From NCBI GenBank assembly GCA_016350165.1, contig CP066225.1:2914001-2978000 (forward strand): a stretch of DNA of 64,000 nucleotides, read 5' to 3'. The notes under the pieces are model-generated. The model ran no database searches and was not told the origin of the DNA. It saw only the letters and a list, made by a program, of their open reading frames with translations. Shown piece by piece: positions 28,505 to 33,447 of the stretch. Position numbers and translations under genes: made by a program. The stretch's first letter is position 1. The number at the start of each line of letters is the position of its first letter. Source of the stretch: Planctomycetota bacterium (GTDB lineage: Bacteria > Planctomycetota > Phycisphaerae > Phycisphaerales > Phycisphaeraceae).

Positions 28505-30169
28505 ATGTCAATTCCAGCACTTGTTATTGCTGATACTGAAAAATCCTTTTTTGGATTGCCTTCACGTTTGGGGGAGAAGTTGTGCGGGTTGAGTGTATTA
28601 GAATTCACGTTGAAGCGTTTAGCATCTATTCAAGAAATAGACAGAATATATGTATTACATCCTGAAGGGCAGAAGCCAGGGGAATTGGTGAGTGGTGAGG
28701 TTGACGCTGATGTTGAGTATGTGTCGCATGCTTATGGCTATGATGCGAAGTTACGGACATGGCAGTCGGGGCGTAAATGGGCGATGACTGGTTGGCGAGG
28801 TGGTTTAGGGTGGACATCGATTTATGATGAAGTGTTGCCAGCGAAGCCGATTGCGGAAGTGATGGGTGAATTGGGTGTCGATGCTGCGTTTTTTGTGCGT
28901 GGTGATTGGGTGTTGTTTGATAAACAGTCAGCATCGGAGATGATTAAAACACATATGCAAGCTCCGGATAGTTTTCGGTTTTGCTTTACGCAATCACCTC
29001 CGGGCTTGTCGGGGTTTGTTGCTTCGCGTACGACGTTTGAACAGTTTGAAGAAAATGGTGCTTCGTTTGGAAAAGTGCTTGGATATTCGCATCAGCAACC
29101 GATGCTTGATCCGATTTCCAGTGATGCAAATATTGCGATTAGTCCGTCAGTTCGAGATTGTAACCGCAGGTTTGTGTATGACACGTACCGATCGAAATGT
29201 TTGATTGATCAACTTGCGGAGAAGATGGAGGAGGGGCTTGTTGATGCGAGCGCTGAAGAGATTGCGGAAGCTGTGTATGCGTATGAAGCTGAAAACCCTG
29301 AGTATGTGTATGAGATGTTACCTCAGCAGATTACGATTGAGTTGACACCTAACCGTAAGTTAGATGGGCCGTTGACGCCTCAGCACTATTTGTCGTTTGA
29401 ACGTGAAGCGATGGATGTTGAATCAGTGAAGCAGTTGATTGATCAGATTGCAGCAGATGATGCGGATGATGTTGTGATTACTTTTGCAGGGATGGGTGAT
29501 CAGCTTGAGTATGATGCGTATGGGGAAATGATTCGTTATGCGGATGAAGCGGGTGTGCTGGGGATTGCTCTGGAGACAGATTTACTGGTTGAAGATGATG
29601 ATCAGTTGTGTGGACTGAATGATTTGCCGTTGGATTTGCTTTTGGTGAATTTGAATGCTGATACTGCGAAGACATATGAAAAAGTGATGGGGACGGTGAA
29701 TTATAAGTTGCCGTTATCAAATCTTGAAAAACTATTTAATAATCGGATTGCGCGGTATAAGGATGGTGATGGCGAATGGATTTCATGGATTATTCCGGAG
29801 ATGATGAAGACGACATTAAATCTGGATGATATGGAAACATTCTTTGCAAGATGGATGACATATGCGGGGCATGCAATTATTAAGCCGTTCCAAACGGGTT
29901 TGGGATTGTTGCCTGATTTGTCGCCTGTTCCAATGCAGCCACCTTATCGCCAGATTTGTAAGCAGCTTGGTCGTAGGTTGAGTGTGTTGTCAGATGGGTC
30001 GGTGTTGCAGTGTGATCAGGATATTATGGGGGAATTGCCCTTGGGGAATGCGGATGAAGTTTCGTTACTTGAATTATGGGGTAGACAGGAAGATGTCTAT
30101 GCGAAGCATAGAGCGTGTGATTTTAGTTGTGAGATGTGTGCGGGTTGTGGTGAGTGGTTTAGGCCGTGA
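28505..30169 (+). CDS. Fusion of a nucleotidyltransferase-like domain with a cysteine-less radical-SAM-like/SPASM domain (spiro-SPASM-like)
   Basis: 554 residues from ATG 28505 (GGATGGAG upstream). Residues 1-250 resemble a GT-A nucleotidyltransferase of the SpsF/NeuA kind (PSRLGEKLCGLSVLEFTLKRL). From about 275 there is a barrel that aligns by eye with radical SAM enzymes, but where CxxxCxxC is expected the sequence is TIELTPNRKLDGPLTP, with no cysteine. The C terminus is a complete SPASM-type cluster region: CKQLGR, LSDGSVLQCDQD, GNADEVSLLELW, then CDFSCEMCAGC. This architecture recalls the spirochaete spiro-SPASM family as I remember it. Located between Maf and CMP-sugar synthetase genes, so a role in nonulosonate glycosylation is inferred. 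Confidence 0.75.
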   Translation: MSIPALVIADTEKSFFGLPSRLGEKLCGLSVLEFTLKRLASIQEIDRIYVLHPEGQKPGELVSGEVDADVEYVSHAYGYDAKLRTWQSGRKWAMTGWRGGLGWTSIYDEVLPAKPIAEVMGELGVDAAFFVRGDWVLFDKQSASEMIKTHMQAPDSFRFCFTQSPPGLSGFVASRTTFEQFEENGASFGKVLGYSHQQPMLDPISSDANIAISPSVRDCNRRFVYDTYRSKCLIDQLAEKMEEGLVDASAEEIAEAVYAYEAENPEYVYEMLPQQITIELTPNRKLDGPLTPQHYLSFEREAMDVESVKQLIDQIAADDADDVVITFAGMGDQLEYDAYGEMIRYADEAGVLGIALETDLLVEDDDQLCGLNDLPLDLLLVNLNADTAKTYEKVMGTVNYKLPLSNLEKLFNNRIARYKDGDGEWISWIIPEMMKTTLNLDDMETFFARWMTYAGHAIIKPFQTGLGLLPDLSPVPMQPPYRQICKQLGRRLSVLSDGSVLQCDQDIMGELPLGNADEVSLLELWGRQEDVYAKHRACDFSCEMCAGCGEWFRP

Positions 30170-32196: not shown

Positions 32197-33447
32197 ATGA
32201 GGCGAGCAGCGATACTATTGCCTGTATTGTCAATACTTTTAGTTGGTTTGGTATTCGGGCAGACGCAAAAGCGTGTGATTCCGATTAATGCGGCGGATGC
32301 AGAGTCGATTGAAATTACGATTGAGGTGAAGCCGACACCACCGTCAAAGGATCGGCCGAATATGCAGTTGGCGATTTTGTTAGATACATCGAATTCTATG
32401 GATGGCTTGATCAATCAGGCGAAGTCACAGTTGTGGACGATTATTAATCAATGTTCTAAGGCATCGTATAACGGGCAGGTGCCTAATTTAACGATTGCTG
32501 TCTTTGAGTATGGGAATGATCGTTTACCTGCAACCGAGGGTTATATTCGACAGGTGTTGCCGTTCACAAATGATTTGGATGCGGTATCGAAAGAGCTGTT
32601 TTCACTTACGACGAATGGTGGTGAAGAGTATTGTGGTACGGTAATTGAAAAAGCTATTAAGCGCTTAGATTGGTCAGATAACCCGAATGACTATAAAGCA
32701 ATCTATATTGCGGGGAATGAACCGTTTACGCAGGGACAGTTTTCATATAAAGAAGCTTGTTCACTGGCGAGATCAAATAATATTATTGTAAATACGATTC
32801 ACTGTGGAGCTTATGATACGGGGATTCAAGGGATGTGGCAGCATGGTGCATCCCTTGCGAGTGGTCAGTATTTAAATATTAATCAGGATCGTAAGGTGGT
32901 GCATATTGCGACGCCCTATGATGATGATTTAACGCGATTGGGTAGTGAGATCAATGAGACATATGTATGGTACGGAACAGCTCGGGAGCAAAATCATTAT
33001 AGGCAGAATCAAATCGCTCAAGATAGAAATGCGGGGATGATGGGTGGTATGGCACGATTAAGTCGTAGTTCTGCAAAAGCTTCGAAGTCATATCGCAATA
33101 CAAAGAACGATTTGGTAGACGCAATTGAAGAAGAAGGTGTTAAGAAGTTAGGGGAGGTTAAATCAGAAGAGTTGCCAAAAGCAATGCAAGGCATGGACCA
33201 AGATGAGCAAGTCAAATTCGTTAAAGAACAGAAAGCTAAAAGAGAAAGTATTAGAAACGAAATTGCAAATCTAGAAACAAAAAGACAGGCATTTCTAGCT
33301 AAAAAACGTAAAGATCAGGCAAAAGATACGTTAGGTGATGCGATCACGATAACAATTATTGATCAGTTGAAGATTAATGGTTTTAAAATTGAGGTGCCTG
33401 TTGAAGTAAATAATGATAAAGATAAGCAGGAACAGGCTTCCGAATAA
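32197..33447 (+). CDS. Secreted VWA-domain protein
   Basis: 416 residues. A signal peptide (RRAAILLPVLSILLVGLVFGQ) precedes a von Willebrand factor A domain. MIDAS-type residues are seen in LLDTSNSM (DxSxS), with later positions such as FEYGND and YIAGNE in place of the commoner TDG. The C-terminal 150 residues are rich in Lys, Glu, Ala and Gln (EQKAKRESIRNEIANLETKRQ) and probably form a coiled coil, ending EVPVEVNNDKDKQEQ. Likely binds another protein at the cell surface. Isolated transcription unit with own terminator. Confidence 0.85.
   Translation: MRRAAILLPVLSILLVGLVFGQTQKRVIPINAADAESIEITIEVKPTPPSKDRPNMQLAILLDTSNSMDGLINQAKSQLWTIINQCSKASYNGQVPNLTIAVFEYGNDRLPATEGYIRQVLPFTNDLDAVSKELFSLTTNGGEEYCGTVIEKAIKRLDWSDNPNDYKAIYIAGNEPFTQGQFSYKEACSLARSNNIIVNTIHCGAYDTGIQGMWQHGASLASGQYLNINQDRKVVHIATPYDDDLTRLGSEINETYVWYGTAREQNHYRQNQIAQDRNAGMMGGMARLSRSSAKASKSYRNTKNDLVDAIEEEGVKKLGEVKSEELPKAMQGMDQDEQVKFVKEQKAKRESIRNEIANLETKRQAFLAKKRKDQAKDTLGDAITITIIDQLKINGFKIEVPVEVNNDKDKQEQASE

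Follow-up and report, generated by a model that had tools for sequence, protein, structure and literature searches.

SPX (the label used here for the subject gene and its product, a pseudo-cytidylyltransferase/pseudo-radical-SAM protein) probably assists Maf-dependent flagellin glycosylation as an accessory subunit without radical chemistry, as suggested by its sequence, its predicted structure and its genomic context. That SPX is a partner of Maf is likely, and we hold this with good confidence; that it carries out no radical chemistry is very likely. Adjacency to Maf, co-inheritance with it and at least two gene fusions point to a protein that acts together with Maf; moreover, since the catalytic cluster is gone everywhere and the auxiliary cluster is gone in the Phycisphaerales fusions, the shared function would need no Fe–S chemistry. 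The new observations are the distribution in Phycisphaerae, the conserved gene order, the co-occurrence with Maf, and the Maf fusions with their loss of cysteines.

The ORF lies exactly where the original prediction had placed it, with the claimed length of 554 residues (Table 1), and is present in one copy in the 5.23-Mb single-contig genome. In the window, i.e., the whole 64,000-nucleotide stretch of DNA that was analysed, it belongs to a tight run on the + strand, namely, maf, SPX, the CMP-synthetase gene and neuC, with gaps of 28, 21, and 8 nt.

Table 1. Features of the SPX locus (positions in the window)
Feature	Position	Strand	Details
Maf-type flagellin glycosyltransferase, 646 aa	26536..28476	+	PF01973 E 8.6e-38, PF20157 E 5e-7
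SPX, 554 aa	28505..30169	+	ATG at 28505, stop codon ends at 30169
N-terminal half, residues 1–264	28505..29296	+	SpsF/KdsB-type cytidylyltransferase fold; ARxxSSRLPGK loop missing
WRGG motif, residues 97–100	28793..28804	+	Invariant among aligned unfused members
Radical-SAM-like barrel, residues 267–480	29303..29944	+	VIA-align to BtrN; PF04055 weak
ELTPNRKLDGPLTP in place of the CxxxCxxC loop	29339..29380	+	Arg284 = Cys1, Gly288 = Cys2, Thr291 = Cys3
SPASM/twitch region, residues 481–554	29945..30166	+	PF13186, conserved columns, sequence match to the BtrN auxiliary-cluster region
CMP-nonulosonate synthetase (PseF/NeuA type), 237 aa	30191..30904	+	PF02348 E 4.3e-18
NeuC/NnaA-type UDP-GlcNAc 2-epimerase, 383 aa	30913..32064	+	TIGR03568 312.8 bits vs. 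cut-off 235.9

A scan of the genome contigs with the single SPX sequence recovered no relatives, and the single sequence had no matches in the PDB; the alignment-based scan of the contigs yielded 28 SPX loci. The N-terminal domain was found in 166 of 297 Phycisphaerae genomes and, at E<1e-10, in 33 of 294 sampled Planctomycetota genomes; SPX is common within Planctomycetota and is no curiosity. Relatives were found neither in plasmids nor in viral contigs. In Nitrospirota the only matches were to NeuB joined to an ordinary SpsF domain, so no homologue was found there; at the two Nitrospirota loci (L140, L141) the SpsF-type cytidylyltransferase part of this NeuB fusion has an intact signature loop.

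All 33 genomes with SPX also have Maf (PF01973), which is present in 52 of the 294 genomes (Fisher p 1.5e-30, a value that overstates the association because related genomes are not independent); no SPX homologue was detected in 19 of these 52 planctomycete genomes with Maf. Flagellin is encoded in 32 of the 33 SPX genomes, the exception (G308) having a degenerate fused copy. In this genome, 97% complete and with undetectable flagellin, the 1071-aa Maf–SPX fusion (L135/L146) matches Maf weakly (42.9 bits) and reads WGGG in place of WRGG, as if the fusion were decaying after loss of the flagellum.

The order Maf, SPX, CMP-nonulosonate synthetase, NeuC is strongly conserved. It had been asked whether homologues always sit beside Maf and NeuA-type genes, and the association is supported: at all 25 loci of the genome collection having upstream sequence, Maf either immediately precedes SPX on the same strand or is fused to it, and the CMP-synthetase follows SPX at 23 of them. 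Maf and the homologue lie on separate contigs in five genomes (G069, G093, G110, G203, and G309).

Direct checks showed that a single frame encodes Maf together with both SPX halves, synthetase-like and barrel, in 11 sampled genomes from three families (f2, f4, and f5) of Phycisphaerales, the order to which the SPX genome belongs, as well as at loci L081 and L086. ORFs of 1,071–1,474 aa occupy 39 of the 40 listed places in these families, the remaining one being near a contig end. One long ORF (in G043) was dropped as a fusion, as Maf is in a different frame, and another (in G675) was left out of the count. The four-cysteine auxiliary set is absent from all inspected Phycisphaerales fusions, some of which end before that region. 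A second, independent fusion, in a genome of another family (G214), retains the cysteines and has lost WRGG, so that no single element is universally retained. In the predicted structure of the fused L081 protein, one chain matches in succession Maf (5mu5, Z 22.6), the cytidylyltransferase 6oew (Z 20.0), and radical-SAM barrels (Z 17–21); the AlphaFold model (pTM 0.64, disordered linker 637–653) gives no confident arrangement of Maf relative to SPX. Maf itself (5mu5) is not a homologue of SPX, being instead its probable partner, encoded adjacent to it and fused to it in Phycisphaerales.

The AlphaFold model of SPX (25-row alignment; mean pLDDT 90.6, pTM 0.91) bears out the two-part architecture that had been read from the sequence, that is, an SpsF/CMP-sugar-synthetase-like half followed by a radical-SAM-like barrel, and a TIM barrel is predicted in the second half. 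In genus g16, dN/dS of 0.07–0.20 for both halves corresponds to purifying selection, which argues against SPX being a decaying pseudogene. Both halves look like pseudo-enzymes, judging by the alignments and the model.

Residues 1–270 superpose on the Leptospira cytidylyltransferase 6oew (VIA-align Z 21.6, rmsd 2.8, 214 aa). With the SpsF-type and KdsB/CMP-Pse synthetases (6oew, 1gqc, 9ftc) SPX shares the GD..D and R...DT positions, GD, R222, and D226 being mostly retained in the SPX family, and it differs from them in the lost ARxxSSRLPGK signature, in the WRGG motif, gained by the SPX family, and in the inserted segment that precedes this motif. Where the triphosphate-binding signature is expected, SPX has ADTEKSFFGLPSR, which is unconserved in the family; the R/K loop of intact SpsF domains has given way to a stretch two residues longer. 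Thus, of the SpsF/NeuA-type assignment made originally, the SpsF/KdsB-like fold stands, with the correction that the triphosphate-binding signature is gone as well, and SPX has the cytidylyltransferase fold of the SpsF/CMP-sugar synthetases without their signature. SpsF has been assigned, as a putative cytidylyltransferase, to the legionaminic acid pathway of Bacillus subtilis (PMC7439481), so that the fold from which the N-terminal half derives is part of the same sugar chemistry.

The very strong conservation of R90, WRGG, DE108–109, PPG, D202, R222, and D226, together with purifying selection and the retention in most members of the acidic GD and DT positions, equivalent to the SpsF metal sites, could also mean that this half is still an active glycosyltransferase or nucleotidyltransferase with a changed specificity, which adds or activates a second sugar of the flagellin glycan and for which the barrel is merely a carrier. 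We regard this as unlikely, given the replaced and lengthened triphosphate-binding loop, the lack of conservation of D134 in the wider family, and the presence in the next gene of a dedicated CMP-synthetase, in which the ARAGSxGLPxKN signature is intact (TIGR03584 E 2.9e-26, below the cut-off).

Residues 267–554 align with both the barrel and the twitch region of BtrN (4m7t; VIA-align Z 22.1, rmsd 2.6, 232 residues), a radical-SAM dehydrogenase with one auxiliary cluster, whose auxiliary-cluster region resembles the SPX tail in sequence too; BtrN has the catalytic CxxxCxxC cluster, whereas SPX does not. The SPX barrel also matches many other radical-SAM enzymes.

The tail is a SPASM domain by Pfam (PF13186, residues 485–548, 32.4 bits vs. 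the gathering cut-off of 21.5). Cys485, Cys503, Cys545, and Cys548 are predicted to be the four-ligand set of one [4Fe-4S] cluster, like that of BtrN, and the C-x17-C and C-x2-C spacing is common to the SPX family and its CxxxCxxC relatives. Both the score and the ligands for one auxiliary cluster are those of PF13186. The original prediction of a complete SPASM cysteine set proves to be right as to the domain and wrong as to the set: a two-cluster SPASM domain has seven or eight cysteines, while the tail of SPX has six, four of them conserved in the family as a twitch-type set and the other two (538 and 542) unconserved beyond the SPX genus.

In spite of the missing catalytic cluster, these four cysteines persist in most unfused members, which suggests that the auxiliary cluster still matters there, and this counts against the accessory-subunit reading. 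The cluster could then sense oxygen or redox state and so gate the activity of Maf. Such a role is quite improbable, as the ligands are lost stepwise: the first of the four is gone in a subclade of family f1 (L022, L025, L027, L028, and L029), and the whole set is gone in the inspected Phycisphaerales fusions. For an accessory subunit of Maf, the cluster, where the four cysteines persist, would be structural and dispensable.

The absence of CxxxCxxC from the radical-SAM-like barrel, claimed originally for this protein, is borne out and extends to the whole family. At the catalytic-cluster position SPX reads IELTPNRKLDGPLTP, without a cysteine; Arg284, Gly288, and Thr291 align with the three cysteines of stand-alone radical-SAM homologues (e.g., EVTSACQLHCVFCPR in L054). 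The only CxxxCxxC string in SPX, CDFSCEMC at residues 538–545, is in the SPASM tail, away from the radical-SAM site. The Pfam Radical_SAM profile gives a sub-threshold match (23.6 bits, residues 300–415 corresponding to profile positions 25–141), and SPX has the partial TIM barrel fold of this superfamily (PF04055) without its CxxxCxxC motif. In two alignments (20 and 25 rows) every homologue lacks cysteine at all three cluster positions, and CxxxCxxC was found at the radical-SAM site in none of approximately 50 examined rows of full-length homologues. In family f1, to which SPX belongs, the replacement is kept as ELTPxRxxxGPxxP, and across the entire family the former ligand positions are occupied by R/D/F/G/Q/S, mostly G, and mostly T/V/I/L, respectively. 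The conservation in relatives excludes a sequencing error near position 29340 that would hide a cysteine. The motif is retained in stand-alone homologues of about 340 aa, and the homologues that have it all lie to one side of a branch supported at 100/99, which is consistent with a single loss. Judging by these alignments, the loss of the catalytic cluster is real and old. An unorthodox radical-SAM enzyme, with a cluster bound by other ligands or borrowed, is hardly credible: the barrel fold persists and a GGxGD stretch occupies the SAM-binding GGE position, whereas no substitute ligand is conserved family-wide at the three former positions, and every CxxxCxxC homologue falls on one side of the 100/99 branch.

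Two proteins, L054 and L042, were considered as full-length intermediates bearing CxxxCxxC and were dropped because their N-terminal parts are unrelated. The whole ORF of L054 (G077, 565 aa) combines an N-terminal domain, WbqC-like by its N-terminal motif, with a radical-SAM/SPASM part with intact CxxxCxxC, and is another glycan-linked fusion.

One of the closest described families is the NCBIfam subfamily spiro-SPASM (TIGR04321): SPX residues 124–552 are collinear with positions 88–506 of the 510-position model (E 2.3e-45), at a score of 155.2 bits, which is 95 below the 250-bit cut-off. The model matches 24 of the 25 members of the planctomycete alignment, and its cut-off is reached in none of the 294 Planctomycetota genomes. 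Hence, the predicted link to spiro-SPASM holds as a near-full alignment to the model and fails as membership (155 vs. 250 bits); by sequence, SPX is a relative of spiro-SPASM and not a filed member. Our literature search found no text on what spiro-SPASM proteins do. The pseudo-SAM/SPASM family TIGR04347, likewise named as a radical-SAM-like SPASM family without radical function, weakly matches one alignment member and differs in having no match to SPX itself.

The suggestion that SPX has become a binding or scaffold protein of the glycosylation system is supported, and it is strengthened by the Maf fusions and by the loss of all Fe–S ligands in those of Phycisphaerales. In this role SPX would be complexed with Maf in the cytoplasm prior to flagellin export. 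Maf is known to modify flagellin in the cytoplasm, ahead of chaperone binding and export (PMC4065374), which fits a cytoplasmic partner. The synthetase-like half may dock or hand over CMP-activated nonulosonic acid coming from the product of the next gene, a specific job that fold and context would allow and that we consider doubtful. The barrel might help to hold flagellin at the place where active relatives hold their peptide substrates; this too is argued from fold and context, and is rather unlikely. The Maf of Clostridium botulinum glycosylates co-expressed flagellin in E. coli producing CMP-Neu5Ac (PMC11339370), that is, it works without such a partner, and so a partner of the SPX type would be lineage-specific.

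As for the origin of SPX, we tentatively propose, as plausible rather than probable, that dead relatives of CMP-nonulosonate synthetases and of radical-SAM enzymes were joined as a dedicated delivery subunit of Maf; in one order this subunit came to form the tail of Maf itself, after which the Fe–S ligands still left in it disappeared. On this view the spirochaete spiro-SPASM proteins would be Maf partners as well. Through the fusions, the relatives of spiro-SPASM acquire a concrete role in flagellin glycosylation that can be tested, and SPX appears to be a case of a radical-SAM domain kept after its chemistry was lost. If this is true, an accessory subunit missing from current descriptions of the pathway operates in the Maf systems of a large bacterial class, and the stepwise loss of Fe–S ligands forms a natural series from enzyme to scaffold.

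The same genome encodes a NeuB-type synthase elsewhere, as well as flagellins. Thus, with NeuB, NeuC, the CMP-synthetase, Maf, and flagellin all encoded, a complete pathway is plausible. The NeuB-type synthase gene (L142 6867–10484, G000:C1 near 3,902,500) is far from the Maf operon and adjoins a gene for a methyl-accepting chemotaxis protein. Within the window, neuC is followed by a gene for a VWA-domain protein (32197–33447), which is found in the same place in several Phycisphaeraceae.
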